DNA of 64,000 nt from Clostridia bacterium. Its GTDB lineage: Bacteria; Bacillota; Clostridia; Oscillospirales; Acutalibacteraceae. Made by a program: the position numbers and the translations under genes. The DNA lies in assembly GCA_029226955.1 (NCBI GenBank), contig JAQXZA010000012.1:1-64000 (forward strand), given 5' to 3'. The notes below the pieces were generated by a model. That model saw nothing but the letters and a program-made list of their open reading frames with translations. It searched no databases and had not been told where the DNA came from. Of the stretch, positions 16,627 through 59,976 are shown piece after piece. The first letter of the stretch is position 1. The number at the start of each line of letters is the position of its first letter.

Positions 16627-16716
16627 AATAAACTGTTTTCAGAATTTATAAAATAGTGGATAACGCAGTGCATATTATTGCACTGCAAATCTGCAATTTA
16701 TTCAGGGGTGAACTTT

Positions 16717-21004: not shown

Positions 21005-21023
21005 GTTACAGGGAGGGTTAATT

Positions 21024-22850
21024 GTGTGTGGAATAGTTGGTTATATCGGCTATGAACAGGCTGCACCTATCCTTTTGCAAGGACTTGAAAAACTCGAATA
21101 CCGTGGATATGATTCCGCAGGAGTGTGCCTTTTTAACGGAAAAGAACTTCAGGTAGAAAAAGCAAAGGGAAAACTTGAAGTATTGAAAAACCTTACAAAT
21201 AACGGAGAAGATCTTTCCGGTACGGTTGGTATAGGTCATACAAGATGGGCAACACACGGCGAACCATCTGATGTGAACGCTCACCCTCATCTCAGTGAGT
21301 CAGGCAGATTTGCCGTTGTTCATAACGGCATAATTGAAAATTATAATCAGCTTAAAGAATATCTTATCTCAAAAGGCATAACATTCCGTTCAAAAACCGA
21401 TACGGAAGTTATAGCACAGCTTATTGAGTATTATTACAAAGACAATCTTATTGATACAATAATTAAGGTTCTGTCAAAACTCAACGGTTCTTATGCGATA
21501 GGAGTAATAAGTCAGGAAAATCCTGATGAAATTATTGCAGTCCGTAAGGAAAGTCCGCTTATTGTCGGACTTGGAGAACACGAGAATTATATTGCCTCAG
21601 ATGTTCCGGCAATTCTTGCAAAAACAAGAAAAATATATCGTCTTGAAAACAATGAAATTGCAATTCTTACCCGTGAAAATGTCAGAATTATCAATACGGA
21701 TAAAGAAGAAGTCAAAAAAGAAGTACAGACAGTAAACTGGGACGTAAGTGCGGCTGAAAAAGGCGGATATGAACATTTTATGTTCAAGGAAATTATGGAA
21801 CAGCCAAAGGCAATTCACGATACAATAACACCCCGTATTAAAGACGGCAGAGTTGTTTTGGACGAAATTTCAATCACTGATGAACAGCTTAAAAACTTCA
21901 ACAAAATTGAAATAATTGCCTGTGGTTCTGCATATCACGTCGGAGTTGTGGCAAAATATGTATTTGAAAAGATACTGAGAAAGCCTGTTGAAGTAGATCT
22001 TGCGTCTGAGTTCAGATACAGAGATCCGATTGTAGATGATAAAACTCTTGCAGTGGTAATCAGTCAGTCTGGTGAAACAGCCGACACACGTGAGGCTATG
22101 AAAGAGGCTCAACGACACGGAGCACACGTAATTTCTATTGTAAATGTTGTCGGAAGTTCGATAGCGTCTGAATCTGATGATGTAATTTACACATGGGCGG
22201 GACCTGAAATTGCCGTTGCAACAACAAAGGCATACAGCACTCAGCTTGCAGTAATTTATCTTATGGCAATATACTTTGGTGATAAACTTGGAAACATATC
22301 AGAAGAAGACTACAAAATGTATGTTTCTGAGCTTGAACAGCTACCTGATAAGATAACAAAAATCCTTGAACATAAAGAAAATATACAGTATCTTGCGTCA
22401 AAGCATTTCAATAGCCGTGATGTATTTTTCATAGGCAGAAACATTGACTATGCACTGTCGCTTGAAGGTTCTTTGAAACTCAAAGAAATTTCTTATATTC
22501 ATTCAGAGGCTTATGCGGCAGGTGAACTAAAACACGGTACTATTTCACTGATAGAAAACGGAACACTTGTTATTGCTCTTGCAACCCACGAAAAACTTAT
22601 CGAAAAGATAGTAAGTAATATCGAAGAGGTTCAGGCAAGAGGTGCTGATGTTGTATGTCTTGCGTGTGAAAATCATCAGGAAATCAAAAATGTTTCGCAA
22701 AATACAATATTCATTCCTCAGGCGTGTGATATGGTATTGCCGTCATTGGCAGTAATACCGTTACAGCTTTTTGCGTATTATGTTGCCTCTCTTAAAGGCT
22801 GTGACATTGATAAACCACGTAATCTGGCAAAATCAGTTACGGTAGAGTAA
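21024..22850 (+). CDS. glmS: Glutamine-fructose-6-phosphate aminotransferase
   Basis: [35 protein letters not shown]; SIS domains; [13 protein letters not shown] C-terminus. Confidence 0.97.
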   Translation: [608 protein letters not shown]

Positions 22851-38316: not shown

Positions 38317-39261
38317 ATGAAAGTTTTAGTAAAAACAAAAGACCTGAGCCGTTCCGACTGGCTCAGGTATCGTGCTATGGGCATAGGAGGTTCTGATGTT
38401 TCCGTTGTTGCGGGCATTAATCCTTACCGCTCGGTATATCAGCTGTGGCTTGAAAAAACAGGACAGATTGAACCTGAACAGAGCGACAGCGAATATGCAC
38501 ATTTCGGTACACTGCTGGAACCTGTCATTCGCAAGGAATTTACTGAACGGACAGGATTAAAGGTAAGACAGAAACATATGATTCTGCAAAGTGAAGAATA
38601 TCCCTTTATGCTTGCAAATCTTGACGGCATAATCAATGTTGATGGGGAGAGGTGCATTTTTGAAGCAAAAACAGCTTCGGCTTATAAAACCGATGACTGG
38701 CAAAATGGAATACCGCCTGAATATATGCTGCAAATACAGCATTATATGGCGGTAACCGGTGCAAAGAAAACTTACATAGCTGCTTTGATTGGCGGCAATC
38801 ATTTCATCTGTAAAATGATTGAGCGTGATGATTCAATTATTCAAAAGATTATTGCTATGGAAAAGTGTTTCTGGGAAGTCCATGTTCTGGGCGGTGTTGA
38901 ACCTGTCCCTGACGGTTCATCAGCTACAACAAAATATTTAAACGGCAAATACAGCAATGTAAACGGTAATACGGTAAAGCTGCCGGAAGATATTATTCCT
39001 GAATGTGAAGAGTATAACAGACTTTCAAGTCAGATTGATGAATTGAATACTGAAAGAGATGCCGTTTGCAACCGTATAAAAAATGTACTGAAAGACAATG
39101 AATTCGGTTTGGCAGGGAAGTATAAAATCTCATGGAAAAATGTCAATTCATCCGGCTTTGATAAAACCAGATTCAAGGCAGATAATCCCGAACTGTACAA
39201 TCAGTACATAACACATTCACAATACAGGCGTTTCAGTGTAAGTCAGGCGGTGACGGCATAA
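38317..39261 (+). CDS. YqaJ-family phage-type recombination exonuclease
   Basis: RYRAMGIGGSDVSVVAGINPYRSVYQLWLEKTG, E/EAKTA catalytic core, ML(Q)IQHYM. Confidence 0.9.
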   Translation: MKVLVKTKDLSRSDWLRYRAMGIGGSDVSVVAGINPYRSVYQLWLEKTGQIEPEQSDSEYAHFGTLLEPVIRKEFTERTGLKVRQKHMILQSEEYPFMLANLDGIINVDGERCIFEAKTASAYKTDDWQNGIPPEYMLQIQHYMAVTGAKKTYIAALIGGNHFICKMIERDDSIIQKIIAMEKCFWEVHVLGGVEPVPDGSSATTKYLNGKYSNVNGNTVKLPEDIIPECEEYNRLSSQIDELNTERDAVCNRIKNVLKDNEFGLAGKYKISWKNVNSSGFDKTRFKADNPELYNQYITHSQYRRFSVSQAVTA

Positions 39262-39962
39262 TGGAAGATGTTAAAATCAGGTTGTTAAGAGCCGATGAAA
39301 TTGAGTGTCGTATAGGCACTATAAGCGAAAAGGGATTATCCCTTTTGTTGTATAAGGACGCAAGAGCCGATATGAAAATTCTTGATGAAACCTTCGGCTG
39401 CTTTGGCTGGAAACGTACTCATCAGAGCATTGACGGAAATCTTTATTGTACAGTTGAGATCTGGGACAGTGATAAAAAATCGTGGATAGCAAAGCAGGAT
39501 GTCGGTACGGTCAGCTATACAGAAAAAGAAAAGGGTCAGGCTTCTGACAGTTTCAAACGAGCCTGTGTTTCTGTGGGTATCGGGCGTGAATTATATTCAG
39601 CACCGTTTGTTTGGATATCTGCTCAGAAATGTAATATTCAGCGAAAAAATGATAAGCTGATTTCCTATGACAAATTTTCTGTAAGTGAAATATCCTACAA
39701 TGAAAATCGTGAAATAATCGGTTTGTCGATTATAAACGACGATACGGGAGAAATTGTATATTCTATGATTCAAAAAGGTTCTCAAAAAGCCAATCCTGTA
39801 AATTCACAGTTTTATGAATTTAACAACGAACTGAAAAGAACAGGCGTACTACTTGATGCGGTGCTTGCAAGATACGGTGTCGGCAGTATAGAAGAAATGA
39901 CACCGGAATTACTTAACAAGGCGATTAACAGCCTTAAAAAAACAAAGAACAAATCAGCATAA
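39261..39962 (+). CDS. Rad52-like single-strand annealing protein
   Basis: FGWKRTHQSIDGNLYCTVEIWD...KGQASDSFKRACVSVGIGRELYSAPFVWI; overlaps yqaJ stop. Confidence 0.75.
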   Translation: MEDVKIRLLRADEIECRIGTISEKGLSLLLYKDARADMKILDETFGCFGWKRTHQSIDGNLYCTVEIWDSDKKSWIAKQDVGTVSYTEKEKGQASDSFKRACVSVGIGRELYSAPFVWISAQKCNIQRKNDKLISYDKFSVSEISYNENREIIGLSIINDDTGEIVYSMIQKGSQKANPVNSQFYEFNNELKRTGVLLDAVLARYGVGSIEEMTPELLNKAINSLKKTKNKSA

Positions 39963-39969
39963 AAACAGA

Positions 39970-40018
39970 AAACGAACCGTTGGCGATGAAATGAATTTAT
40001 CGCTGACGGTTCGTTTTT
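39970..40018 (+). terminator. Terminator-like hairpin
   Basis: AACGAACCGTtgGCGAT ... ATCGCtgACGGTTCGTTTTTG. Confidence 0.7.
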
Positions 40019-40055
40019 GTTTATAAATAATTATTATATGAAGGAGAGCTTTACT

Positions 40056-41177
40056 ATGAACGAAATTACTATGTGCAGTTACTGCGGCTGTGAAATCGAG
40101 GACAATGTATATGAGGTTGAGGGAGAGTATTTCTGTGAAGATTGTTACGAAGATGAAACCTTTGAATGTGAATGCTGCGGTGGCAGATTTCTGAACAGTC
40201 ACGACCATGGGGATGAAAACATAGGACTTTGCCCGGATTGTTACGATGAACATTATCATCGTTGTGTGCGTTGTAACTGCCTGATTCATTCCAGTAATGC
40301 ATATTGGTATGACGGTGATGCCTATTGCAGCGATTGCTATGAGGATGATGAAGATTGTGAAGATGATGACGGTTATATAAATGATTATTATTACAAGCCT
40401 TCACCTGAGTTTTATAAATGTCCTGATGAAAAGCGGGTTCGTTATTATGGCGTTGAGTTGGAAATAGACAGGGGAGGCAGAGATGAGTACAATGCGGAAG
40501 AAATTTATAACACCGCCAACAAAGGCAGTGACATACTCTATATCAAATCTGATGGTTCACTTGATGACGGTATGGAGCTTGTAAGTCATCCCTGTTCGCT
40601 GAAATACCACAGATATAACTTTCCGTGGTTTGATATTATGCAGAAAGCAAAGGATCTTTATTACCGTTCACATAATACAAGCACATGCGGATTGCATATA
40701 CATATCGGCAGGGCAGAACTGGGTGCAACCATAGAACAGCAGGAAGAAGTTATTGGCAGAATTATGTTCTTCTTTGAAAGCCACTGGAATGAAATGTTCA
40801 AATTTTCAAGAAGAAGCGAATATTCACTTGACAGATGGGCATCAAGATACGGCTATAAAGACAGACCGAAAGAAATTCTTGAAGATGCCAAGAAGAACAG
40901 CAAGGGCAGATATGTCTGTGTGAATATCACTAATGAAAATACAGTTGAAATAAGAATGTTCAGGGGAACTTTGAAATGGAATACATTTATGGCAACGATT
41001 GAAATGGTTGATTCCATCTGTGAAAATGCAGTCAATCTTACTGACAGCGATATACATAAGCAGTCATGGAATGACTTTGTTATGCTGATAAACCCTGAAT
41101 ACAAAGAGCTTATAAAGTATCTGAAAGAAAAACGACTTTATGTTAATGAACCGGTAGAAAACGAGGAGGAAATTTAA
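40056..41177 (+). CDS. Amidoligase-family protein with N-terminal LIM-like multi-zinc-knuckle region
   Basis: Repeated CxxC pairs (CSYCGC...CEDCY...CECCG...CPDCY...CVRCNC...CSDCY); amidoligase-like YYGVELEIDRGG, SDGSLDDGMELVSHP, CGLHIHIG, FRGTL. Confidence 0.8.
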   Translation: MNEITMCSYCGCEIEDNVYEVEGEYFCEDCYEDETFECECCGGRFLNSHDHGDENIGLCPDCYDEHYHRCVRCNCLIHSSNAYWYDGDAYCSDCYEDDEDCEDDDGYINDYYYKPSPEFYKCPDEKRVRYYGVELEIDRGGRDEYNAEEIYNTANKGSDILYIKSDGSLDDGMELVSHPCSLKYHRYNFPWFDIMQKAKDLYYRSHNTSTCGLHIHIGRAELGATIEQQEEVIGRIMFFFESHWNEMFKFSRRSEYSLDRWASRYGYKDRPKEILEDAKKNSKGRYVCVNITNENTVEIRMFRGTLKWNTFMATIEMVDSICENAVNLTDSDIHKQSWNDFVMLINPEYKELIKYLKEKRLYVNEPVENEEEI

Positions 41178-41178
41178 A

Positions 41179-42129
41179 ATGTGTGCAATATTCGGACTTG
41201 TAAATTATAAGCATGTTATAAGCGGAAAACATCTTAAAGAGCTTGTGGAAGCTCTTTCAACAGAATCAGAGGTAAGAGGAACAGATGCTTCGGGCATTGC
41301 GTATGTGAAGAACGGGGAAATGGTAATCTATAAAAAGCCAAAGCCTGCACATAAGATGAAATTCTATTTTCCTGCTGATACAACCATACTGACAGGTCAT
41401 ACCCGTATGACAACTCAGGGAAATGCAAAGTTTAACTTCAACAATCACCCGTTTGCAGGCAAAACTGCTGACGGGTGTTTTGCACTTTGTCACAACGGTG
41501 TAATCTATAATTATGATTTTCTGGAAAAGACTGAGGATTTTCCGGATACTCATATTGAAACGGACAGTTATGTTGCAGTGCAGCTTATTGAAAAGTATGG
41601 CAGACTGGATTTCGGCACCATTGCAAAAATGTCGGAAACGGTTCAGGGGTCGTTTGTATTCACCATTCTTAACGATGACAACACGCTGTACATATCCAAA
41701 GGAGATAATCCCTTGTGTCTTATCCATTATAAACAGCTTGGATTGTATGTATATACATCAACAATTGATATTATGCAGGCAGTGCTTAAAGGCAGTTTTC
41801 TGGAAAGATTTCCTTTTGAAGTTATCAATGTAAATGAAGGCGAAATTATCAGCATAAGTAAAAACGGTAAACTTGAAAGAAGCTGTTTTACTTTTGAGGA
41901 TTATGGTTTTAATTTATATTACGACAGATATTATGACTATTATAAGGATAAACTTGATGACAGTTATCTTTACAGTATTTGCAATATGTTTGGTATATCA
42001 CAGGAAGATATGATTCTTCTGTATGAAATGGGGTACTGCGATGAAGAAATAGAAATGATGCTTGATGACAAGGAACTTTTGCAGAGCTGCATTGAAGAGG
42101 CAAAAATGTGCATAGGTGAGTATATCTGA
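41179..42129 (+). CDS. Class II glutamine amidotransferase (Ntn-hydrolase)
   Basis: MCAIFGLVNY (Cys2 nucleophile), RGTDASGIAY, GHTRMTTQG, FALCHNGVIYNY. Confidence 0.88.
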   Translation: MCAIFGLVNYKHVISGKHLKELVEALSTESEVRGTDASGIAYVKNGEMVIYKKPKPAHKMKFYFPADTTILTGHTRMTTQGNAKFNFNNHPFAGKTADGCFALCHNGVIYNYDFLEKTEDFPDTHIETDSYVAVQLIEKYGRLDFGTIAKMSETVQGSFVFTILNDDNTLYISKGDNPLCLIHYKQLGLYVYTSTIDIMQAVLKGSFLERFPFEVINVNEGEIISISKNGKLERSCFTFEDYGFNLYYDRYYDYYKDKLDDSYLYSICNMFGISQEDMILLYEMGYCDEEIEMMLDDKELLQSCIEEAKMCIGEYI

Positions 42130-42218
42130 GTTGATATTATAATATTATCGAAAATTGGTTTGACTTGGATAATTTCCGGTGATAAAATAAATTCAGAGGG
42201 TATTTTTGAAGTATTAAG

Positions 42219-42307: not shown

Positions 42308-43795
42308 ATGAGCAAAAAATCAATGGATCAAAAACAGAAAGAATATTTCCAGTCAATCCGTAAAAAAATTCTTAAAAGGTTAGGAAACGATAAACAAGTG
42401 TCACCATATGAATTTGATGATGATATTACAGATAAGCAAGATAGATTCAATGAATCTACGAGTATCGCACATATGGTCACAAGATTCATGAATTCACTTG
42501 TAGATCCGGAATCACCATTTCAATGGTTTGATTTTACGGAAAAGAATAAAGATGTTTTTGTTGAATTAGGGGTTATTCTTATCCAACGATCATCAGATAA
42601 TCACCAAATATACAGCCAAATGAAAAAATTGAATACAATGACTGATTTTAAAATTTTTATCAAAGATTTTAACAATGTTAGCCTTGATGAAATTTGTAAG
42701 AAAAACCCTCAATTAGAAATCCTAACACATGATAATTTTAGGCGTTGCATGAATTCTGTTACTGAACGTGTCAAGATTTATAATATCGCAAATTACAAAG
42801 ACACGGTTCAGATAATTAAGGATGCAAATACTGAAGTTTTTATAGAAATCGATAAAGCAAAAAAAGCATTACATAATGCAGGTTACAACAGCTCCGTTCC
42901 TGAATATATTGAGTATTATATGGATTTGATTGACCATATTGTTAAAGTGTCAATTTATTTGATAAATTACCGGGGTATAGTATGCAACAGCTATATTAGC
43001 CAATTAAGCTTTGATGAGTTTTTTGATAAAATGATAGACGGAGCTAAGGCTATAAAAGAAAAATTAAGAGAAGTACTATTGAAAAATAAAAAATTCGTGA
43101 ACAGCGATATCAAGGAAAAAATCACCAGGTTTGCTTATTACCTTGAACGCAAGGCTGCATACAAAGAATCCGCAGAAACAATGAATTTGCTTTGTGATGA
43201 AATAGACAGTGATCCTGAAAAATTTGATTTGGATCGCAACTATTTGAAATACAGATACTCATTCAATCGTATAAGAAGTTCTGGTAAAAATAGCAAAGTA
43301 AAGAAAGCAAAAGTTTTGGTAACAGAATCCGAAAGAGTGACTAATTATAACCAAAAAATAAAAAGCATTAAGGCTTTAATGATTTTTGCCCGGGATAATT
43401 TTCACAATGAAATTATTGATTATAATTGCAGAAATGTAAAGGCTCTTTTCCGGGAAATATATGTCATAAAGACACAATCTCCTGTGTTAAAACGAACTGC
43501 AAATACAATAGTCAGGGATTTTGAGTCCAAAAAATTATTCAAAAAACCGGGAGAATCATATACGAATGAAGAACGAAAAATACTGGAGCAAAAAACCCGC
43601 TTTTTGGATTTAAAATGTACAAGAGGATTACTTTCCGCTCTTGGAATGTCGTCTTATTACAGTAAATATTGTGAGTTAAGACAAATTATGTGGGATACTT
43701 TGTTATTATCTTACAGTGCAATAGACGAGGATTATATTTATAGTGTTATCAGGGATATCGGGAATCTGTTTACTGACCTGCTTCTGATTGAATAA
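42308..43795 (+). CDS. Hypothetical protein, about 495 aa, no recognised domain
   Basis: Long ORF with RBS-like aaaggatg upstream. Confidence 0.55.
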   Translation: MSKKSMDQKQKEYFQSIRKKILKRLGNDKQVSPYEFDDDITDKQDRFNESTSIAHMVTRFMNSLVDPESPFQWFDFTEKNKDVFVELGVILIQRSSDNHQIYSQMKKLNTMTDFKIFIKDFNNVSLDEICKKNPQLEILTHDNFRRCMNSVTERVKIYNIANYKDTVQIIKDANTEVFIEIDKAKKALHNAGYNSSVPEYIEYYMDLIDHIVKVSIYLINYRGIVCNSYISQLSFDEFFDKMIDGAKAIKEKLREVLLKNKKFVNSDIKEKITRFAYYLERKAAYKESAETMNLLCDEIDSDPEKFDLDRNYLKYRYSFNRIRSSGKNSKVKKAKVLVTESERVTNYNQKIKSIKALMIFARDNFHNEIIDYNCRNVKALFREIYVIKTQSPVLKRTANTIVRDFESKKLFKKPGESYTNEERKILEQKTRFLDLKCTRGLLSALGMSSYYSKYCELRQIMWDTLLLSYSAIDEDYIYSVIRDIGNLFTDLLLIE

Positions 43796-44275: not shown

Positions 44276-45658
44276 ATGATAAAAGGTATAATTAAAGTTC
44301 AGGCACCTGAGAAAGCAAACTATCAGGATGTGTATGAACTTATCAAGGAAAAAAACGTCGTATGCTGTGTGAATAACACAATTTATATTCAGAACGACAA
44401 TGAGCTGTGGATCAAGGTATCTGATAATAAAGCAGTTTTAATGATCCGAAGCATGTTCGCCGACAGTAACTGGCAACCATTTCTGGGTACAGACAAAGTA
44501 TTGACTCTGATCCGGAATTTAAAGACCGATCCCTCTCTGCAAAAGCCGGAAAGTGATTTTATACATCCTGACCTGATAAGATTTAAAAATGGTATATGGA
44601 ATATCTCCTGTGATAGTTTTCAATATTTAAATTCCAAACCATTATTCAGAAGGTCGGTTGATGTTTGCGTTCCGATTGAAGTCGAAGAAGAATCTCCGGA
44701 ATTTGTTAATTTCTGTGAACATGTTTTTGATCAGAAAAATTACACACAGAAGAAACAGGTACTTTATGAGATTATAGGTTATGCCATATCTGATATTGAA
44801 AATGTAAAAAAGGCGATATTCCTCATAGGTCCAAGCAATACTGGGAAATCTGTTATTTTAAGATTTATCCAAAGGCTGGTTGGCGAAGAGAATGTCAGCA
44901 ATATTTCTCTTGACAATTTTGCCCACAGATTCAGCGTTGCTGAAATGGCAGGCAAATGTCTGAATATAAGCGGTGAAGTGCCAAGCGGAGTGCTGACCGG
45001 AAAAGCATTGGACATTTTTAAAAATCTGACAGGAGGTGACAAAATTGAAATAGAGAAAAAGGGCTGTCAGCCTTCCTCAGCAAAAATCGCTACCAAGTTG
45101 CTGTTTGCCGGTAATACTTTACCGGTGTTCAGTAATGTGGACGGTACAGACTCACTTGTAGAACGCTTGCATATCATTTTATTTGATAAGCAGGTTGAAG
45201 AAAGTGAGAGGGATAAAGATCTTGAAAATAAGCTGTGGGAACAAAGGGATCTGATTGTAAGATACGCATTAACTGCTGTAAATCGATTTGTTTCAAACAA
45301 CAAAGAATTTATAGTTCTTGATGATGAAAAGCAATTATTACAATCAATGGCGAAAACTGCCAATCCTGTTTCATACTTCCTGGAAAGCTGTATGGAATAC
45401 GGAGAAGAATATTTTATACATATATCTGATGCTTATGAAGCTTTTCGTAAATTTGCAGCTGAAGAAGCTTTGCCTGATGTTCCAAGAACAATATTTCGTA
45501 ATATGGTTGCAATGCATGCAAATATATGTATATGTAAAACAAAAAAGCGGTTAGGAAAAAATTCACCTAAAAGCTGTTTTCAAGGAATAAAATTAAAAAA
45601 TTATTTGTATGACAAAAAGCAAGATACCGAAATGTATGACACAGAGGAGGAAATTTAA
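44276..45658 (+). CDS. P4/D5-type primase-helicase (SF3 helicase)
   Basis: IFLIGPSNTGKSVILRFIQRLVG, NISGEVPSG, ATKLLFAGNTLPVF. Confidence 0.85.
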   Translation: MIKGIIKVQAPEKANYQDVYELIKEKNVVCCVNNTIYIQNDNELWIKVSDNKAVLMIRSMFADSNWQPFLGTDKVLTLIRNLKTDPSLQKPESDFIHPDLIRFKNGIWNISCDSFQYLNSKPLFRRSVDVCVPIEVEEESPEFVNFCEHVFDQKNYTQKKQVLYEIIGYAISDIENVKKAIFLIGPSNTGKSVILRFIQRLVGEENVSNISLDNFAHRFSVAEMAGKCLNISGEVPSGVLTGKALDIFKNLTGGDKIEIEKKGCQPSSAKIATKLLFAGNTLPVFSNVDGTDSLVERLHIILFDKQVEESERDKDLENKLWEQRDLIVRYALTAVNRFVSNNKEFIVLDDEKQLLQSMAKTANPVSYFLESCMEYGEEYFIHISDAYEAFRKFAAEEALPDVPRTIFRNMVAMHANICICKTKKRLGKNSPKSCFQGIKLKNYLYDKKQDTEMYDTEEEI

Positions 45659-45659: not shown

Positions 45660-45983
45660 ATGTCTAATAAAGAAAAGATAAGCGTTTGGTTAGACCCGGA
45701 AATCAATGAGATGCTTGAACGGATCAAGCAGAAAACAGGACAGAATAAAAGTCGTTTGATAAACAGAATATTAAAACAAAATTCTGCTGATATAATAATT
45801 ATAGAGTCAACAAAAATCGCGGCATCGCTTTTTGATATCCGGCGTTTACTGAAGCAAATGCCGGATGATGATTCCGTCAAAGTGAAAGTTGAAGCTGCTT
45901 GCGACTTGCTGACACAGGAACTATATAATTTGTTTGATAAAGGGGGCGATTCAAATGGCAATTTTGAAAGCGATAAATGTTAA
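45660..45983 (+). CDS. Ribbon-helix-helix mobilization-type protein
   Basis: EKISVWLDPEINEMLERIKQKTGQNKSRLINRIL; overlaps relaxase start. Confidence 0.65.
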   Translation: MSNKEKISVWLDPEINEMLERIKQKTGQNKSRLINRILKQNSADIIIIESTKIAASLFDIRRLLKQMPDDDSVKVKVEAACDLLTQELYNLFDKGGDSNGNFESDKC

Positions 45984-46731
45984 GAATGCAGACAGAAAGA
46001 GATTTCTTGAAGCACTTGACTATGTTTCAAATCCTGCCAAAAATCCTGATACAGACTTGTCGGACAAAGCCAAAAAGTTTGAAATGGTAACTTTGGTTAA
46101 CCGTAAACTTTATGGACAGGAAGACTGCAAAAGACAATTTAAGCAGTATATTATATCCATGGAAAATGAATGACCCGATAATCCCCATAACCGTGAAAGA
46201 TTCAACAAAGCATTTTCCGGGGTTGTAAATGAATGTGAAATGTATTTCATGAATAAGGGATACATGGCGTCAGGATATATTCATTATAATACAAATCATC
46301 CTCATTGTCATATACTGCTTGAAACCTGTAATGGAATAAACGGTAAGCAATATACAGAGTCACAATCCGATCTTGCAAACTTTAAAAAATTTGTAAGTTC
46401 AATACTCCTCAGTTATGGATTTGACGAAAAAATACTTATTGAGGTTAAATTCATTACCGAAGAAGAATTGTTTCAGGAGGAACAATCCGATATTATATCC
46501 GATGATAAAATTGACTCCGTTGATAAGCATTGTAAATCTTCGGACGACGGCAAGGAAAATTTCACTTCGGAAATATTGCCATGGAACATTGGAACTATGG
46601 AACACAGCCGAACACATATTCCGCAAAGAGTAATGTGCTTAACAGTAGCACCGGAACAAAAAAAGGAAATGTGTAAAATAGTACCGCAAAACAAAAAGAA
46701 AATTATGTGCAACATAATTTCACACAAATAA
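45955..46731 (+). pseudogene. Relaxase/mobilization nuclease interrupted by an in-frame TGA at 46171-46173
   Basis: MAILKAINVKNADRKRFLEALDYVSNPAKN...ISMENE*PDNPHNRERFNKAF...YIHYNTNHPHCHILLETCNG; both halves are in the same frame. Confidence 0.75.
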
Positions 46732-46750: not shown

Positions 46751-46933
46751 ATGCAAAATAAACTTTATTATAGTGCTATGGATGTTTCGGAACTTTTAGG
46801 GATTTCACGATCAAAAGCCTATTCCATAGTAAAAGAAATGAATAAGGAACTTTCCGAAAAAGGCTATATTGTAATTGCCGGAAAAGTTCCCAAGAAATTT
46901 CTTGAAGAAAAGTGCTACGGCATTATAGACTGA
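46751..46933 (+). CDS. Excisionase-like HTH protein
   Basis: YYSAMDVSELLGISRSKAYSIVKEMNKEL, 60 aa, just upstream of the integrase. Confidence 0.7.
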   Translation: MQNKLYYSAMDVSELLGISRSKAYSIVKEMNKELSEKGYIVIAGKVPKKFLEEKCYGIID

Positions 46934-47007: not shown

Positions 47008-48105
47008 ATGACAGTAACTAAAAACTCAAAAGGACTGTGGGATGTACAGTTTTACTATAAGGATTATCAGGGCAAAAACATCAAAAAGCATAAGCGTAAT
47101 TTCAAAACCAAAAAGGAGGCCGTTGAATGGGCGGAAAGATTTATCGCACAGCAATCACATAATTTAAATATGGATTTTGAATCGTTCTGGCAGCTTTACA
47201 GGGAAGATATGTCAGGTCGTCTCAGAGAAAATACTTTCCGCACAAAAGACTATATTGTAGAACTGAAAATTCTTCCGTATTTTGGCAAAAAGAAAATTGC
47301 TGATATTACCGCTGCTGATATAAGACGATGGCAGAATAGTCTTATAAGACAAGGATATGCCCCTACATACTTAAAAACAATCCATAATCAGCTCAGTGCA
47401 ATTTTCAACTATGCTGTCAGATATTACGATTTGCCTAAAAATCCCTGTATACAGGCAGGATCAATGGGAAGACGAAACGCACAGGAAATGCAGTTCTGGA
47501 CGCAGGAAGAATTTGAAACATTTATCGAGGCTGTAAAAGATAAACCCATTTCCTACTATGCTTTTATGATTATGTACTGGACAGGTATCAGGGTAGGGGA
47601 ATTGCTTGCACTCACAATTTCCGATTTTGATGCGGAGGAGAAAACCTTGTCGATTACAAAATCATATCAGAGAATAAACGGAAAAGATGTTATTACCGAA
47701 CCCAAAACATCTAAAAGCAATCGAGTAATAACGCTTCCGAACTTTCTTGCAGCAGAAATTGAAGAGTATATCAGTAAGCTTTACGGTATGATGCCAAATG
47801 ACAGGATGTTTGTAATTACAAAATCTTATCTGGAAAAAGAGATGATCAGAGGGGTAAGAATTTCAGGCGTGAAGAAAATCAGGTTACATGACCTTCGACA
47901 CAGTCACGCATCGTTGTTAATTTCCAAATTAGGAGCACAGCCAAATCTTGTTGCGGATCGTCTCGGACATGAAAAAATACAGACAACACTTTCTGTATAT
48001 TCGCATCTTTATCCTAACCAGGCACGAAATCTTGCTGATAAGTTAGATGAACTTGTTGACAAATCTGACGAAGAGGAGATTGATGAAAATGCCAAGCAAC
48101 CATAA
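47008..48105 (+). CDS. Tyrosine site-specific recombinase (integrase)
   Basis: TGIRVGELLALTISDFD, RLHDLRHSHASLLI, LGHEKIQTTLSVYSHL. Confidence 0.95.
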   Translation: MTVTKNSKGLWDVQFYYKDYQGKNIKKHKRNFKTKKEAVEWAERFIAQQSHNLNMDFESFWQLYREDMSGRLRENTFRTKDYIVELKILPYFGKKKIADITAADIRRWQNSLIRQGYAPTYLKTIHNQLSAIFNYAVRYYDLPKNPCIQAGSMGRRNAQEMQFWTQEEFETFIEAVKDKPISYYAFMIMYWTGIRVGELLALTISDFDAEEKTLSITKSYQRINGKDVITEPKTSKSNRVITLPNFLAAEIEEYISKLYGMMPNDRMFVITKSYLEKEMIRGVRISGVKKIRLHDLRHSHASLLISKLGAQPNLVADRLGHEKIQTTLSVYSHLYPNQARNLADKLDELVDKSDEEEIDENAKQP

Positions 48106-48511
48106 AGAGCATCCCACAATATCCTTTCGTCCGAGTGAATGGGCAAGAAAAATTATAGAACAAAGGGCAGAGCTTAGTGGGATGTATAAAAAAGACTTCA
48201 TTACAAGAAGCTGTGTATATTCAAATATAGTCGTGGTAGGCAAAAATGAAAATATACAGCGTATAGTTGATGAGGCACAGGAAATGCAGGCAGTTATGAT
48301 AGAACTGCTTGAACAAATTTATTCCGGTAGGTTTAAGTTGTCTGATGAAAGTTATAATCAGCTCAAAGAAGATTATATGGCTTTTACGATAACATTAGTT
48401 GATATACTTGACGGAGCCGCCTATTTGTTTGAAAAGGAGGCAGTCAAAAATCGAAAAAACTGGAAAGCAGAACTTGAGTTAGAGCAATACCGAAATATTT
48501 TAAAACTGTAA
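48083..48511 (+). CDS. Mobilization-associated protein (MobC-like)
   Basis: ISFRPSEWARKIIEQRAELSGMYKKDFITRSCVYSNIVVVGKNENI; overlaps integrase end. Confidence 0.55.
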   Translation: MKMPSNHKEHPTISFRPSEWARKIIEQRAELSGMYKKDFITRSCVYSNIVVVGKNENIQRIVDEAQEMQAVMIELLEQIYSGRFKLSDESYNQLKEDYMAFTITLVDILDGAAYLFEKEAVKNRKNWKAELELEQYRNILKL

Positions 48512-49105: not shown

Positions 49106-49528
49106 ATGGGAAATATTATACCTGCTTGGAAATTTTCAAAAAATAATATTTCTGGGCTATTAAAACCAATCATTTATTGTTGTCCATATGAAGGCATTGC
49201 AGATACAGCAGTGTCAATCAACCTGCTTTTAGCTAAGAAATTGGTTGAATGCAGATTAACCCGAAGGACAATGCGAATAGAGACCTTTTTTAATCAAATC
49301 TTGAGTCAGTTGCCAGATGGTGCTGTAATCAAGGATTTTGATGTAATGTTTAATCCAAAATATAAAGTAGACGTGCTACGAATTATGACAGTTGCATGCA
49401 AAAAGAAACCATTCAGTGTTATATGGCCTGGAAAATGTGAAGATGGAAAGCTGTTCTATGCTGAAGATGGTTACCTTGATTTCAAGGTGTTCAATGTAGA
49501 AGAATACGATGTAACATGTGTTGTTTAA
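49106..49528 (+). CDS. BrxF-like protein (type 3 BREX) with no recognisable P-loop
   Basis: VSINLLLAKKLVECRLTRRTMRIETFFNQIL...VMFNPKYKVDVLRIMTVACKKKPFSVIWPGKCEDGKLFYAEDGYLDF resembles the BrxF core; position upstream of brxC. Confidence 0.6.
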   Translation: MGNIIPAWKFSKNNISGLLKPIIYCCPYEGIADTAVSINLLLAKKLVECRLTRRTMRIETFFNQILSQLPDGAVIKDFDVMFNPKYKVDVLRIMTVACKKKPFSVIWPGKCEDGKLFYAEDGYLDFKVFNVEEYDVTCVV

Positions 49529-49541
49529 GGAGGAGCATAAA

Positions 49542-52500
49542 ATGAAATATTCTGAGTTAATCAGTTTCAATCCCATTGAGGATGTCATACAGCTTGTAAC
49601 AGCTGGAGATACCAATAAGGCTCGTGAGTATGTAAAAACCTATGTTATGTCTGATTCAATGGCAGAAGCTTTACAGGCTCCGATTATTGACCAATTGCAA
49701 ATGGACGAGGTGGTTGATAACAAAGGCGTGCTGGTAGTTGGTAACTATGGTACCGGTAAATCTCACTTGATGTCCGTTATCTCTGCTATTGCAACGGATG
49801 CTGACAATTTGCAGTATCTACAAAATCGTAAGTTTGCCAAGCAGATGGAACCTATTGCTGGCAAATTTGAAGTTCTGCGCATTGAGATCGGTGGTCTTGT
49901 TATGCCTCTGTATGATGTCATAATGGGCGATGTGCAGGATGACTTTGATAGTCGTGGTATCAAATTTGAAGTACCTGAATACGGCAGCGTAAAGAGCCTT
50001 AAGACCGTTATCAAAAATATGATGATTGCCTTCTCTAAGAAGTATCCTGATAAGGGTTATTTGATCATCGTTGATGAGTTCCTGTCTTATCTTTCTTCCC
50101 GTGATGAGAGAGAAATCGTTCTTGACCTTGAATTCTTTCGTGCTCTTGGTGAGATGTGTTCTAAGTCCAAGTTGCGTGTCATTTTTGGCATGCAGGAGAA
50201 AATTTTTGATAATCCTCGCTTCAGCTTCGTGGCCGACACACTGAAACACGTTAGTGATCGTTTCACTCAACTTATTATTACAAAGGAAGCTACATCCTAT
50301 GTTGTGTCTGAGCGTATTTTGAAAAAAACGCCCGAGCAAAAAGCAATGATTCGCAAACACCTTGAACAGTTCTGTGGTCTTTATACCGGCATGTCATCCA
50401 GATTGGAAGAATTTGTGGACTTGTTCCCGATTCATCCTTCCTACATTGACGTATTTAATAAAATTTATTTGATAGAGAATCGCCACATCCTGAAGAATAT
50501 CTCGGTAACCATCAAGAGCATCTTTAACACCGAGGTTCCTCAGAATGCACCGGGCATCATTTCCTTCGATAACTATTGGCCTGCAATCAAGTCTAATGGT
50601 CTGCTGAAGAGCGATGTGACCATCAGTCGTGTTGTGAATGCCAGCCAGCAGTTGGAAGATATTATCAACCGTGCTTTCCCGAAAGCTGTGTACAAGCCTC
50701 TGGCGACAAAGATTATCTATGCTTTGAGTGTGCACAGGCTTACTACCAACGGTCTGGATGTGCAGTTTGGCATGACTGCGGAAAATTTAAAGGATGACCT
50801 GTGCCTGTATCTGCCTATGCCGGAGCAAGATGCAGATTTTCTGCTTTCTCTCATCAAAACCACTTTGCGTGACATCATGACTACCGTTTCCGGTCAATTC
50901 ATCATTTATAACGATGCAAACAATCAGTATTACATTGACGTGGATAAAATTGTGGACTACGATGCAAAGATTAAGCAGAAGGCTTCCATTCTGGCTGATG
51001 GGGAATTGAACCGCTATTTCTATGATGTTGTTTATCGGTGCTTGGAGTGGGACGCAAAGCAATATGTTACCAACTTCAATATTTATGAATATGATCTAAA
51101 TTGGGATTCTCACAATATTTTCCGTGAAGGATACTTGTTTATGGGTCTGCCAGGAGAGCGTAGCACTGCCCAGCCGGAGCGTGATTTCTATATTCATATC
51201 ATGCCTCCTTATGACGAGAACGGCAGTTGTGTGAAGAATCTTACTGATGAAGTATATCTGTACTTCAAATCCTCGGATGAATTCCGTGAAATTATGAGCT
51301 TCTATGCTGCAGCACAGAGTCTTGCCCAGATCAGCGAAGGTAAAGATAAGGAAGCATACAATAACAAGGCGAATATACTCCGTAAGAGTCTAATTAAGTA
51401 TCTGAATGAAAATAAGAACACTTGCTTCGATGTAATTTATCAAGGTAAGAAGCGTCAGATGATTGAAGCTTTGAGAGGTCGCTATAACCGTGACATGACC
51501 TTCAAGGATACCATCGACCTTGCAGCGTCACTGTGTCTCGATGAGTATTTTTGTGATAAGTACCCGGACTTCCCGATTATGAAGACCAAGATTACCCGCC
51601 GCAACATGGCAGACTGTGCTCGTGCGGCGTTTGACCATTTTGCTGGAAGAAAGACGCAGCAGTCTACATTAATGCTTCAAAGCTTTGGCATTCTGGATGG
51701 CGACAAAATTCGTCCAGAAGGCTCCAAGTATGCAGCTTACTACATTGACCAAATTCGTAAGCTGCCGCCGCAAGGCGTTCTGAATTATTCTGACATATTT
51801 GAGCCTTGCTTCATGGATACATATATCGAGAAGAAGTTCAAGATTGAGTTTATCTTTACTCCAATCATTTTCTTGTCTATGGTGTATGGTGGATATGCTG
51901 TTATTACAACAAAAGGCGGAAAGACCATCACAGCTTCCAATTTGGATCAGATTCCAAAGACCAATGTTACGGATCTGTACGAGTTCAAATATCTGTCTAG
52001 ACCAGCTCAGATTTCTATGGCCGAACTTAAGAAGCTGTTTGAAGTGCTGGATATCAATCCTGCATTATTGGATAATCCGAATGACCGTGAGAAAGGTGTG
52101 GCTTATCTGCTTACCAAGGCACAGAAGCTGGCTAACTCTGCTGTACTGTCAGCAAACAAGTTGAATAATGGATTCGACCTGTGGGGAGAGCCTTTGGCAA
52201 ATACCGCAGAGGTCGCTATGCTACAGAAGGCTTGTGCTGCTGTTAGGGACGAGTTTAGCAACTATCAGTCGAAGTTCAACACTCCTGCTAAACTGAATAA
52301 CTTTAGTCTTTCTATGGAACAGGTTGATACGCTGGCTGAACAAATCGCACAGATGTTGAAGATTCCGCAGTTTTTAAGCTTCAAGTCCGGTTGTGCTGAT
52401 ATAGTTTCTTATATTGCAAACATTGAATATATTAATTTGGGTGAAGCATTCAAAGCAGAGGTTGATTCTGCGAAAGCCGAGTTTCGTGCTATCCGTGATA

Positions 52501-53234
52501 GTATCATGGATGGTGCTTCTGGCGAAGTTGCTGCTCAGAAGGTTGATGTTGTCCTGTCCAAAGTGAAGGAAAAATATATCAACATCTATTTTGAAAACCA
52601 TAAAAAGAAGAGACTGGATATTACCGATGCCCAGCGAAGAGGAAAAATTCAGGAAGGTCGTTCACTGGCAAGTCTACGCAAACTACGATCCATTGAAATT
52701 TTGTCCGCTGCTAAGCTGACCGATATTGAGACCGAAATGTCCAGTATCAAGGTCTGCTATGAACTGACACCGGAAGAACTGAAAACTACGCACATTTGTC
52801 CGCACTGCCGCTATCATCTTGACGATAAGGTGAAACCAGTATACGGTCAGTTGGACAATCTGGAAATTCGTATTGATGACCTGCTTACCGAGTGGACACA
52901 GACTCTACTCAATACTATTTCTGATCCGATCGTTGCCAGCCAAAAGAAGTTCCTGTCCACCGAACAGCAACGGGCAATTGACGATTTTATTTCAAGTGGC
53001 ACTCTGCCAAAGCGTGTGGACGACTTCTTTGTTAAGGCTATCAACGCATTGCTGAAGGGCTTTGAACCGGTGGTTATCGATATTGATGATCTGATGGAAA
53101 AACTGGAACAAATGCCGCCGATGGATGAAGCATCCTTCAAGGCAAAGGTAAACGAGCTGATTTCTTCCTATACAAAGGGTAAGGATTCTGGCAAACTGCG
53201 TATCGTTGTGAAACGCAGAGAAAGTGAGGGTTAA
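49542..53234 (+). CDS. brxC: BrxC/PglY-like large ATPase (DUF6079-type)
   Basis: GVLVVGNYGTGKSHLMSVISAIA Walker A, GYLIIVDEFLSYLSS Walker B; ~1230 aa. Confidence 0.85.
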   Translation: MKYSELISFNPIEDVIQLVTAGDTNKAREYVKTYVMSDSMAEALQAPIIDQLQMDEVVDNKGVLVVGNYGTGKSHLMSVISAIATDADNLQYLQNRKFAKQMEPIAGKFEVLRIEIGGLVMPLYDVIMGDVQDDFDSRGIKFEVPEYGSVKSLKTVIKNMMIAFSKKYPDKGYLIIVDEFLSYLSSRDEREIVLDLEFFRALGEMCSKSKLRVIFGMQEKIFDNPRFSFVADTLKHVSDRFTQLIITKEATSYVVSERILKKTPEQKAMIRKHLEQFCGLYTGMSSRLEEFVDLFPIHPSYIDVFNKIYLIENRHILKNISVTIKSIFNTEVPQNAPGIISFDNYWPAIKSNGLLKSDVTISRVVNASQQLEDIINRAFPKAVYKPLATKIIYALSVHRLTTNGLDVQFGMTAENLKDDLCLYLPMPEQDADFLLSLIKTTLRDIMTTVSGQFIIYNDANNQYYIDVDKIVDYDAKIKQKASILADGELNRYFYDVVYRCLEWDAKQYVTNFNIYEYDLNWDSHNIFREGYLFMGLPGERSTAQPERDFYIHIMPPYDENGSCVKNLTDEVYLYFKSSDEFREIMSFYAAAQSLAQISEGKDKEAYNNKANILRKSLIKYLNENKNTCFDVIYQGKKRQMIEALRGRYNRDMTFKDTIDLAASLCLDEYFCDKYPDFPIMKTKITRRNMADCARAAFDHFAGRKTQQSTLMLQSFGILDGDKIRPEGSKYAAYYIDQIRKLPPQGVLNYSDIFEPCFMDTYIEKKFKIEFIFTPIIFLSMVYGGYAVITTKGGKTITASNLDQIPKTNVTDLYEFKYLSRPAQISMAELKKLFEVLDINPALLDNPNDREKGVAYLLTKAQKLANSAVLSANKLNNGFDLWGEPLANTAEVAMLQKACAAVRDEFSNYQSKFNTPAKLNNFSLSMEQVDTLAEQIAQMLKIPQFLSFKSGCADIVSYIANIEYINLGEAFKAEVDSAKAEFRAIRDSIMDGASGEVAAQKVDVVLSKVKEKYINIYFENHKKKRLDITDAQRRGKIQEGRSLASLRKLRSIEILSAAKLTDIETEMSSIKVCYELTPEELKTTHICPHCRYHLDDKVKPVYGQLDNLEIRIDDLLTEWTQTLLNTISDPIVASQKKFLSTEQQRAIDDFISSGTLPKRVDDFFVKAINALLKGFEPVVIDIDDLMEKLEQMPPMDEASFKAKVNELISSYTKGKDSGKLRIVVKRRESEG

Positions 53235-55717
53235 ATGAAACCGAGAAAATTGACAAAAGAGGACATTGATAAAGTACGAAACATAGAGGGTTTCCCCATC
53301 GGTAGTGACGAGGATATTATCGCACTCTCAGATGCACCTATGTATACTGCATGTCCAAACCCGTTCATTGCTTCATTTTTGGAAGAATACGGAACGGTAT
53401 ATGATGAAGAAAGAGATGAATGTGTGCATGTTCCGTATACAGATGATGTTGCCGAAGACAAGCATGATTTGATATATAATATTCATACCTATCATACAAA
53501 GTGCCACCAAAAGCAATTATGACATATTTAGAGCATTACACAAAACCTGGTGATGTTGTTTTGGATGCGTTCTCTGGTTCAGGGATGACCGGAATAGCTG
53601 CACAATTATGTCCTAGTGGGCAAAGAAACGCTATTCTTATTGATTTATCGCCGTATGCTTCATTTATAAGCATGAATTATAACACTCCTAATGATGAAAA
53701 AATTATTTTCGATTTGGAAGCAATTATAAGTGATTTAGAATCGCAATACGGTGACTTTTACCGAACTAATCATGTGGTGGATGGTCATGTTCAAAAAGGA
53801 ATTGATGGACGAAATATTGAGGGAACAATAAATTATACTATTTGGTCGGATGTTTTCTTCTGCCCACATTGCGGTCATGAGATGGTCTATTATCATTCTG
53901 CACTTGATGGAAGAATGAAAGCAATGAAAAAGTTTAATTGCCCTGAGTGTAATTTTGAGATTACAAAAGCCAATATGATTCTCAAAAAGACGACAGAAGT
54001 CGATGCTTCAGGTAAATTGTATGAGTTTGTTCAAAAAAAACCAGTTCTTATTAATTATTCTATTGGAAAAAAGCGTTTCTTTAAAGAGCCAGACGAGTGT
54101 GATTTGAAAAAAATCGCAGAAGCCCGTCCGACAAAATGGATTCCAAGAGATGAATTGCCAGTTGGATATAATACAGAACAGCCGAAGCATTCTCATGGGA
54201 TGTGTTGGGTGAATTCATTCTACACCAGTAGAACACAGTTATTCTTAAGTGAAGCGTATGATAGATTTAGGAAAGATAAGAAAAAGATATTCTTGTTTAC
54301 AAGCATTTTGCCTAAAATGACACTTTTAAATCGATATATGCCTGAACACGGAAGTCGAGCCTTAGTTGGACCAATGGTGGGTACATATTATGTTCCATCT
54401 TTAAGTGTAGAAAACAATGTTATTAATCAGCTTCGTTTTCAATTGCAAAAACTTGGTCATTTGTCTTACTCAAAAGGGAATGTGTTGGTTAGCAACCAAT
54501 CAGCAACAGATCTTAGCAATATTCCTGATAATAGCATTGATTATATTTTTGTTGACCCTCCATTTGGAGCAAATATCATGTACTCGGAGCTGAATTTTAT
54601 GCCCGAAAGCTGGCTGGGTATAAAAACTCAAAATAAGGAAGAGGCGATTGTTAATAATATACAAAAGAAGGCACTTCCTGAATACACAAATTTGATGTAC
54701 AGAAGTTTTGCAGAACTATTTCGAGTCTTAAAGCCTAATCATTGGATAACTATTGAATTTCATAATTCCAAAAATGCTGTATGGAATGCTATTCAGCAAA
54801 GTCTACTGGCGGCAGGATTTGTTATTGCAGATGTAAGAACCTTGAGCAAAGAAAAGAAAACGGTAATGCAGTACAAGTCTGATAACACTGTGGATCAAGA
54901 TCTTGTTATATCGGCCTATAAACCTAAGGATAGTTTTAGAAAATCATTTCTAAGTAAAGTGGGTAGTGAAGATACCGCATGGGAGTTTACAAGACATCAT
55001 TTAGAAAATCTTCCAGTTGTTGTTGTTTCAAATGATAAGATTGAGGTGATTTCTGAAAGACAGGCTTTCTTACTATTTGACAGAATGGTAGCTTATCATA
55101 TTATGCAAGGATTGCCTGTGCCTATGAGTGCAACAGATTATTACCGCGGTCTCGACGAGAAATTCTTGAAACGTGATGGTATGTACTTCTTGGCTGATCA
55201 GGTCAACGAGTATGACACTGCAAGAATTAAGACCGATGTAGAAAACATTCAGTTGAGTATGTACGTTACTAATGAAAAGACCGCTATTTCTTGGTTGTAT
55301 CAGCAGCTGAGCGATGAGTTCGGTGGTCCGCAGACCTATGCAGAACTGCAACCGAAATTCATGCAGGAAGTTAAATCTATTGATAAGTTTGAAGCTATGC
55401 CGGAGCTGTCTACACTGCTGGAAGAAAACTTCTTGCAGGACGAAAAAGGCCGTTGGTATATTCCGAACACTACCAAGGAAGGCGATGTAATCAAACTGCG
55501 TGAAAAAAAATTGTGGAAGGAATTTGAAGGCTATATGAACTCAAAAGGCAAGCTGAAGTTGTTTCGTTCAGAAGCTATTCGTGTCGGCTTTTCTCGCCTC
55601 TGGAAAGATAAGAACTATCAGGCAATTGTTGATATTGCAGAACGACTGCCTGAGCAGACTATTCAGGAAGACGCAAATTTGCTTATGTACTATGATATTA
55701 GCTTGGGGAGAGTGTAA
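53235..55717 (+). pseudogene. BREX DNA adenine methyltransferase (PglX type of type 3), 1-nt frameshift near 53497-53501
   Basis: ORF 53235-53522 (...IYNIHTYHTK|) and GTG-ORF 53501-55717 (|VPPKAIMTYLEHYTKPGDVVLDAFSGSGMTG...DYIFVDPPFGANIMYSELNF) form one continuous protein if one base is restored in ACAAAGTG. Confidence 0.8.
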
Positions 55718-55729
55718 GGAGTTGAATAT

Positions 55730-56722
55730 ATGAAATTCACTGAATCTATGTTAGATAACTATTCTCAACCATTGAGTGCAACAGAGGATCAATACTGCCA
55801 AAATGCTATATGCATGGTCAGTGATGCTCTGAAACGCTTGGGTTTTACCGATGACGGCAAAGCAATCAGTCCGTTGTATCCGGATACATATGCATATTCT
55901 CTTCAACTGAGAAATGCAAGTAACAACCGAAAAATCAAACTATTTGTTCAAGGATCATATGCAAACAATACCAATGTACGTACGCAAAGTGATGTTGATA
56001 TCGCAGTAATCCAAGAGGAAGTGTTTATAACCGAATATCGTTCATCCGGATCAATCTATCCGCAGTCAGACTCAGATTATGGTTTTTTCACTGTACCAAA
56101 AGCTGCTAAAAGTTTTAAGGATGAAGTCCAAGAATGTCTCATCTATAAATTTGGGACAGATGTTGAGAGGAAGAACAAATCCATCAAGGTCCATGGTAAT
56201 ACATACAGAAAGGATGCGGATACGGTTCCGTGCAAACGGTATAGAGACTACCGTGGCGACTATAGTAAAAATGAGTCGAACTATGTTGGTGGTGTTGTGA
56301 TTACGCCCGATCATGGATCTCGTATTATCAATTATCCTGAGCAGCACATTGCAAACGGTCGAAGTAAAAATGTTGCAACGCATTATCATTATAAGAAGAT
56401 GGTACGCATAATGAAAAAAATGAGATATCTTATGGAAGATAGCTATTATCCTTCATACATAACAGCGGCATCAGGAGTTAATTCTTTTATGTTGGAATCA
56501 CTTCTGTGGAATATTGAAGATCCGTGGTATTTAGATAATTGTGGCATATACAGAAAGGTATTTGCTTTCAAGCAGATGATTACTTACCTTTCCTCTCATA
56601 AGGGCTCGTTTAAGTTATACAAAGAAGCAAACGGAATAAAGCCTTTGTGTGCAAACAACGAAGCTTACAATAATCTTTGTGCATTCGTTGATGTGCTTTC
56701 TTCGTTCTATGAGTACGAGTGA
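55730..56722 (+). CDS. CBASS CD-NTase (cGAS/DncV-like nucleotidyltransferase)
   Basis: LFVQGSYANNTNVRTQSDVDIAVI (GS...DxD) and DADTVPCKRYRDY third acidic residue; ~330 aa. Confidence 0.85.
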   Translation: MKFTESMLDNYSQPLSATEDQYCQNAICMVSDALKRLGFTDDGKAISPLYPDTYAYSLQLRNASNNRKIKLFVQGSYANNTNVRTQSDVDIAVIQEEVFITEYRSSGSIYPQSDSDYGFFTVPKAAKSFKDEVQECLIYKFGTDVERKNKSIKVHGNTYRKDADTVPCKRYRDYRGDYSKNESNYVGGVVITPDHGSRIINYPEQHIANGRSKNVATHYHYKKMVRIMKKMRYLMEDSYYPSYITAASGVNSFMLESLLWNIEDPWYLDNCGIYRKVFAFKQMITYLSSHKGSFKLYKEANGIKPLCANNEAYNNLCAFVDVLSSFYEYE

Positions 56723-56737
56723 TTGGAGGAAAGTGGA

Positions 56738-57298
56738 ATGAACGAACATGTGAAAAAACTGATTAAGCCAATGGTTATTTTTGCTGCGATCATTTTTGCG
56801 TGCTGTTTCTTTATTAAAAAGCCAGAATCATATGATGACTATACTTCGTATTTAGGTTATTCTATTTCCGGTGTTTGTGTTCTTTTTGTTGTGTATGAAA
56901 GAGTATTATGGCGTATTATTCCTTGGAATAGACCACCAATCTTAAAAAAGAAGTATGCTGGTAAACTTTCATATGTGTATAAGAAACAACATGGTTTAAA
57001 AGATATCTCAATTCGTGTCAAGCAAACATGGCTTTCAGTTGAGATCACGACTAAAACAGACATCAATTCAAGTTATACCATCACGGGTACAATTGTGAAT
57101 GAGTACGGAATTGATGTGCTGTATTATACTTATATGACCGATCCTTCTGCTGTACATCAGGGAAAGAATCCCATTCAATACGGAACATGCCGAATGGTAT
57201 TGAATGATAATAACAAAAAAATTAAAGGTAAGTATTGGACTTCAAGTCAAACAGTTGGAGATTTGGAGTGGGAAGAGATTTCTGAAGGTAGGAGTTAA
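56738..57298 (+). CDS. Cap15-like CBASS effector: two TM helices + beta-barrel cyclic-dinucleotide sensor
   Basis: TM1 LIKPMVIFAAIIFACCFFI, TM2 LGYSISGVCVLFVVYERVLW, then RVKQTWLSVEITTKTDINSSYTITGTI...LYYTYMTDP...IQYGTCRMVLNDNNKKIKGKYWTSSQTVGDLEW. Confidence 0.75.
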   Translation: MNEHVKKLIKPMVIFAAIIFACCFFIKKPESYDDYTSYLGYSISGVCVLFVVYERVLWRIIPWNRPPILKKKYAGKLSYVYKKQHGLKDISIRVKQTWLSVEITTKTDINSSYTITGTIVNEYGIDVLYYTYMTDPSAVHQGKNPIQYGTCRMVLNDNNKKIKGKYWTSSQTVGDLEWEEISEGRS

Positions 57299-57300
57299 CT

Positions 57301-59973: not shown

Positions 59974-59976
59974 CAG

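Follow-up and report, generated by a model that had tools for sequence, protein, structure and literature searches.

What is the function of two adjacent genes, one resembling an amidoligase and the other a class II glutamine amidotransferase (GATase), that lie among the genes of a mobile element in a Clostridial genome, and do their products act together? The window, which is the whole 64,000-nt stretch of DNA that was analysed, carries this pair at positions 40056–42129, and the placement and 1-nt spacing given in the initial annotation were confirmed. The first gene is referred to as AMID and the second as GAT. Their coordinates are listed in Table 1 with those of the surrounding features.

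Table 1. Features of the AMID-GAT region and of the element that carries it, in window coordinates.
Feature	Position	Strand	Remarks
YqaJ-family (lambda-exonuclease type) recombination nuclease	38317..39261	+	PF09588, E=1.7e-41
Erf/Rad52-type single-strand annealing protein	39261..39962	+	PF04098, E=2.6e-5; phrog_1097 (Erf-like), E=1.6e-17
Terminator-like leader hairpin	39970..40016	+	Separates the Erf gene from AMID; stem of 20 counted pairs
AMID, 373 aa	40056..41177	+	Six CxxC pairs at aa 7-94 form an N-terminal LIM-like array; predicted GS-fold Amidoligase_2 domain at aa ~110-345
AMID 3' end with GAT Shine-Dalgarno	41161..41178	+	GAGGAGG doubles as acidic C-terminal Glu run; direct sequence reading
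GAT, 316 aa, free-standing class II glutamine amidotransferase	41179..42129	+	Conserved C-terminal helical tail (aa ~242-315)
495-aa protein, downstream of GAT	42308..43795	+	No significant Pfam, NCBIfam or PHROG family
D5/P4-type primase-helicase	44276..45658	+	TIGR01613, E=1.3e-40
MobA/VirD2-like relaxase	45955..46731	+	Assigned by likeness to relatives (theirs PF03432); in-frame TGA at 46171-46173
Excisionase-like HTH (Xis-like) protein	46751..46933	+	Weak HTH matches only
Tyrosine integrase	47008..48105	+	PF00589, E=1.9e-21
NikA-like mobilization accessory protein	48089..48511	+	PF21983, E=1.3e-5, just below its cut-off

Predicted folds and conserved residues of the two proteins

The amidoligase-like domain that had been read in the first protein was recovered by profile searching. 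AMID matched PF12224 (Amidoligase_2) over residues 170–320 with an E-value of 9.8e-7 and 29.3 bits against a cut-off of 22 (26.1 bits in the search of its own genome), and phrog_16683, for which no function is given, covered the protein over its full length (E=5.4e-87). AlphaFold2 models were built from alignments of the 31 AMID and 29 GAT proteins of the fetched loci. The AMID model (pLDDT 87.9) contained the amidoligase fold, on whose presence in structure prediction the initial annotation had staked its proposal. When the model was submitted to Foldseek, it matched glutamine synthetase (GS; 5dm3, E=5e-5), YbdK (1r8g, E=6e-5) and gamma-glutamylmethylamide synthetase (9qur), all with a probability of 1.00, and Dop ranked lower; TM-scores against solved GS-fold proteins were low (0.3–0.4) despite that probability. 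The model places AMID in the glutamine-synthetase/YbdK/Dop fold. Residues E134, E136, D166, S168, E174, H214, H216, R264, N290, E298 and R300 were invariant in 31 sequences, and the motifs of the ligase domain read ExE, DxS, E, HxH, R and ExR. We take the invariant acidic, histidine and arginine residues to hold the GS catalytic roles.

The front end of AMID had been described as several LIM-like CxxC knuckles. Six CxxC pairs were found, with the layout C7/10-x16-C27/30-x7-C38/41-x17-C59/62-x7-C70/73-x17-C91/94, and they were invariant or nearly so in the 31 relatives aligned. A LIM domain was defined as C-x2-C-x16-23-H-x2-C-x2-C-x2-C-x16-21-C-x2-[CHD], with two zinc sites 2 residues apart. 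The x16–17 spacing of AMID fits this pattern, but 7 residues separate the modules and the histidine is missing. LIM profile matches were weak (E=0.0023), and in Foldseek the front end resembled the LIM domains of PINCH1 and FHL2. The array is LIM-like and is no canonical LIM domain: the 7-residue spacers set the knuckles apart from those of true LIM domains.

The identification of the second protein as a class II (Ntn-hydrolase) GATase with an intact Cys2 held in every respect. GAT matched GATase_6 (E=1.7e-11) and GATase_7 (E=4e-6) and begins with Met-Cys, as a class II GATase must, with M1 and C2 nearly invariant in relatives. Across 29 aligned proteins, C2, R76, N106, G107 and D129 were invariant or nearly so; with R76 as the glutamine-binding arginine, N106-G107 as the oxyanion Asn-Gly and D129, the class II set is complete. 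The GAT model (pLDDT 91.0) was grouped by Foldseek with the PurF/GlmS glutaminase (E to 8e-15). The tail (window 41941–42126) gave a weak UBA-like profile score that was not significant (HUWE1 UBA, E=0.059), and a UBA-like fold is possible there. This was the only hint bearing on the counter-ubiquitin-like chemistry that had been suggested for the locus, for which no solid ubiquitin-like partner was seen. Plasmid maintenance, another of the suggested roles, likewise found no support, and no solid toxin-antitoxin partner was seen. Two more class II GATase ORFs are present in the window at 16678–18180 and 20982–22850 (GATase_6 E ~1e-20 to 1e-22), unlinked to the pair.

Pairing and co-variation of AMID and GAT

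To our knowledge, free-standing GATases without a synthetase domain need a partner, as in PurF/GlmS/GatD-type enzymes. Loci were gathered by AMID similarity alone from GTDB relatives, viral contigs, named genomes and phage records; the record of phage NV1, found via GAT similarity, was not needed for the pairing count, and eight loci at a contig edge and one probable artefactual fusion stood outside it. Among the 206 informative loci, of Clostridial, phage and viral-contig origin, AMID was followed by a GATase gene in 195, and the other 11 had no GATase within 700 nt. The pair is conserved in other elements, as had been anticipated. AMID and GAT lie on the same strand, and the gap between them is −1 to 3 nt in most relatives. 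The final AMID codons, GAG GAG GAA, double as the GAT Shine-Dalgarno. Because of this overlap and the mostly −1 to 3 nt gaps, the two genes are probably translationally coupled.

Some loci represented one genome in two collections, and dereplication left 141 pairs whose AMID proteins share less than 90% identity. The correlation of AMID and GAT distances over these non-redundant pairs was 0.88 (permutation maximum 0.16), and 0.92 in host loci. AMID distances correlated at 0.34 with those of the tyrosine integrase (40 loci), at 0.42 with those of the serine recombinase (46 loci) and at 0.84 with those of DUF960 (40 loci). Because AMID and GAT co-vary far more with each other than with integrase or recombinase, the cassette moves between elements as one unit. 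Chance juxtaposition was ruled out by the next-gene pairing together with the co-variation. Differences between the window and a 66%-identical relative were 0.27, 0.15 and 0.53 at first, second and third codon positions, and the pair in the window is, judged from its codons, under purifying selection.

An AMID-GAT fusion (L229) was considered as proof of a complex and rejected: its junction has unrelated residues in place of the usual AMID C-terminus and would leave the GATase cysteine buried, and a sequencing or frameshift artefact is likely.

The zinc array had been proposed to recruit the target of the enzyme. In a survey that included distant viral relatives, all 26 proteins with at least three CxxC pairs had a GATase in the locus, and 6 of the 15 low-CxxC proteins, mostly of the C. 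difficile-phage group, had none; the survey covers few clades and is a hint only. Loci without any GATase are low-CxxC ones, bar L106 and L133, which are contig-edge or fragment cases. This association slightly favours, as a hint, GAT docking over target recruitment; no support for recruitment was found, and GAT docking is at least as likely. A rule that the LIM-like array is needed for GAT pairing was discarded, since the low-CxxC ligase of NV1 and several viral ones adjoin a GATase. The ligase domain can evidently use another amine source, because low-CxxC relatives, mostly of the C. difficile-phage type, lack an adjacent GATase.

Two further arrangements were observed among the loci. In C. 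difficile phage AR1086-1 and plasmid pCd18_2 (L003, L257), an amidoligase with neither zinc array nor GATase belongs to a run of genes that also encode a pentapeptide-repeat protein, DUF1653 and an RlaP-type nucleotidyltransferase. In L099, L100, L103 and G664:C477 (L255, L256), two LIM-like amidoligase genes lie near each other.

Leader hairpin, carrying element and distribution

The initial annotation contained neither the leader hairpin before AMID nor the linkage to DUF960 in relatives. The hairpin RNA of the window had a minimum free energy of −36.6 kcal/mol (z −9.0). A hairpin ending 15–45 nt before the AMID start was found in 46 of 74 non-redundant host loci; in the same scan, 20 of 300 other genes drawn from these loci (6.7%) and 1–2 of 74 shuffles had one. 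The median distance from hairpin to AMID start was 26 nt over all hairpins scored. When a Shine-Dalgarno was also required, the stricter scan returned 63 of 127 AMID genes versus 18 of 1226 unclassified genes, 2 of 119 GAT genes and 11 of 66 DUF960 genes. The hairpin was much rarer in distant viral copies (in position in 4 of 52). Its position is kept in relatives though the stem sequences differ; MAFFT registered the stems poorly, and an Rfam search of the region gave no match.

The genes upstream of the hairpin vary (DUF960 in 18 cases, Erf in 6, and others, some on the opposite strand), and the hairpin therefore belongs to the cassette and not to one neighbour. The usual intergenic gap, 50–75 nt, allows little space for a promoter downstream of the hairpin. 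A 9-of-12 promoter-like match was present at 40003–40031, and such matches were as frequent there as in shuffles (54 vs 48.5). Expression is probably set by partial termination or antitermination, through read-through of the hairpin that immediately precedes the AMID start codon.

The mobile-element setting was borne out by the YqaJ, Erf/Rad52, D5 primase, Xis-like, integrase and NikA-like genes and the broken relaxase around the pair. The element has an integrase, a NikA-like gene and a relaxase interrupted by one stop codon, and with the relaxase so broken it may no longer mobilise itself. A search for att repeats at the element gave none that was convincing, and no contiguous match turned up when genomes of the genus were searched with the left flank for an empty site. 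The promoter-like sequence TTGACT-17-TAAAAT, with TG before the second hexamer, lies just after GAT and ahead of the gene for the 495-aa protein (42160–42188). Directly to the right of the element is a defence island (49518–62140) with BrxC (E=0), a PglXI methylase, an SNF2-type helicase and PglZ, which is BREX-like. Between the methylase and the helicase, a CD-NTase and a Cap15 receptor (PF18153, E=2e-15) make up a CBASS pair nested in the BREX-like operon.

The occurrence of AMID is patchy: in the family 9 of 300 genomes had it, in the order 30 of 394 and in the genus 2 of 31. Most named carriers belong to Ruminococcus (flavefaciens, albus, bicirculans, callidus), and some genomes have several copies. 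Mobile-element hallmarks were found in 63 of the 72 host loci with a length of 14 kb or more, and 44 of the 72 had a DUF960 gene (PF06124), usually just upstream, sometimes just downstream of GAT. DUF960 is absent from the genome of the window; in L174, L184, L195 and about 40 further host loci it is tightly linked to the pair. On viral contigs, a scan with a single sequence found nothing and a scan with an alignment gave hundreds of matches; the neighbours there were diverse, with no common third gene.

Proposed function and relation to known systems

We consider it fairly probable that AMID and GAT form one two-subunit, glutamine-dependent, ATP-driven amidating ligase that is carried as a portable cassette. 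This reading was adopted because of the folds, the catalytic residues and the strict pairing, and on the same grounds the use of glutamine-derived ammonia, proposed at the outset, is held as the likeliest chemistry. GAT would hydrolyse glutamine via its N-terminal cysteine and free ammonia, which would pass to AMID within a complex of the two proteins; a carboxylate, activated with ATP at the GS-fold site of AMID, would then be amidated. As a docking module, the LIM-like zinc array would serve either GAT or a macromolecular substrate. For the substrate we lean towards a cytosolic protein or a precursor of the host cell envelope. The cassette rides phages and elements that are probably integrative and mobilizable, and from this context it would provide the element with an accessory function directed at the recipient cell. 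No biochemistry for the AMID family was found in the literature searched.

It is possible, if somewhat unlikely, that the pair instead acts on acidic groups in cell-wall peptides or their precursors, by amidation or linking, and through the altered surface excludes competing phages or elements. Peptidoglycan modification has been proposed for the amidoligase, GATase, ATP-grasp and GGCT cassettes of phiEco32, LUZ24, tf, RIO-1 and PSA-HP1 (PMC5498523, PMC11945000; repeated in PMC10580990 and PMC11318856), a proposal that itself rests on gene content. Homologues of the window pair are carried by Mycobacterium Marvin-group phages and OM43 phages, and a GGACT gene adjoins one viral copy, but only that once among 92 viral neighbours. 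The clade moreover has two genes, the window element has no ATP-grasp, second amidoligase or GGCT, and a zinc module so rich in cysteine suggests a reducing environment in the cytosol.

The anti-defence role that the initial annotation had listed found no support, and we regard it as unlikely in the form in which a defence or regulatory protein of the host is held by the LIM-like array and amidated or linked at its Asp/Glu carboxylates, which would help the element to establish itself. LIM-like arrays usually bind proteins, and the structural matches to PINCH1 and FHL2 agree with such a role, as does the position of the pair among early recombination genes in the window and beside DUF960 in relatives. 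A Lar-type restriction-alleviation match was also obtained once among the viral neighbours. However, no target was found and no substrate-like third gene recurs across phages and hosts, neither AMID nor GAT had a PADLOC match (up to E=1), and the UBA-like score of the GAT tail lacked significance.

A role in small-molecule or nitrogen metabolism, with the pair making or recycling an amide metabolite as auxiliary metabolic genes and having no part in conflict, appears quite unlikely. This reading has been reported for planctomycete phage ZRK32 (PMC10945688), and small molecules are the substrates of the GS-fold relatives YbdK and gamma-glutamylmethylamide synthetase, but a module of six CxxC pairs is unusual for a small-molecule ligase, the distribution is patchy and mobile, and biosynthetic neighbours were not seen. 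We would place little credence in a scheme in which the zinc-array ligase and the glutaminase, often with DUF960 as third subunit, would form a hitherto unrecognised mobile system for post-translational modification in Clostridial elements; upon entry it would amidate proteins of the host or of its defences, under an antitermination switch at the leader hairpin. Cleavage of amide or isopeptide bonds by the GS-fold protein, with GAT as a separate scavenging glutaminase, is very improbable: the fold also includes hydrolases, and the structural matches of AMID extend to the GS-fold deamidase/depupylase Dop, but the best of these matches are ligases, the fixed glutaminase pairing and the co-variation fit ammonia transfer better, and no Pup-like partners were seen.

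The two-subunit ligase that we favour can be compared with several known systems. Amidoligase-GATase pairs are already known in phages, where amidoligase and GATase-II cassettes were proposed by Iyer et al. 2009, as that work is cited in PMC10580990 and PMC11318856. The cassettes of phiEco32, LUZ24/tf/PaP3/NV1, RIO-1 and PSA-HP1 are alike in having a PF12224 ligase with a GATase_6 protein adjoining or nearby in the early region (NV1 locus L008). They differ in adding an ATP-grasp protein, a second COOH-NH2 ligase and GGCT, whereas the window has two genes and a LIM-like front end; the NV1 ligase, unlike AMID, has no zinc array. Marvin-type phages share the order of ligase then GATase, the latter named 'glutamine amidotransferase domain protein' in the Mycobacterium Marvin group, but their ligases are 25–30% identical to AMID and the zinc region is shortened. 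Viral entries in BFVD named 'Amidoligase enzyme' or 'LIM domain containing protein' gave structural matches along most of AMID (E to 5e-23); these are predicted structures only, with automatic names. YbdK (glutamate-cysteine ligase-like) and glutamine synthetase share the GS catalytic fold with AMID but have no zinc module and no GATase partner, and they use free amines or ammonia. In the MurT/GatD system of Firmicutes, a ligase with a separate glutaminase amidates a peptidoglycan carboxylate (PMC3267633). AMID-GAT is alike in logic, but the folds are unrelated, MurT being a Mur ligase. GatD is a class I GATase.

No mention of an amidoligase with a LIM domain was found in the literature searched. 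Three features are new relative to that literature: a LIM-like version confined to a strict pair of genes on Clostridial elements, the hairpin ahead of AMID, and the link to DUF960. Amidoligase-GATase pairs carried by phages came to notice in 2009, and annotations of them are frequent; the literature searched shows no modified substrate for them. Identifying the substrate of the present pair would reveal what purpose amide chemistry serves in phages and mobile elements. Compared with the multi-gene cassettes of phages, a two-gene cassette that is nearly always paired and occurs commonly in culturable Ruminococcus is far simpler to test.
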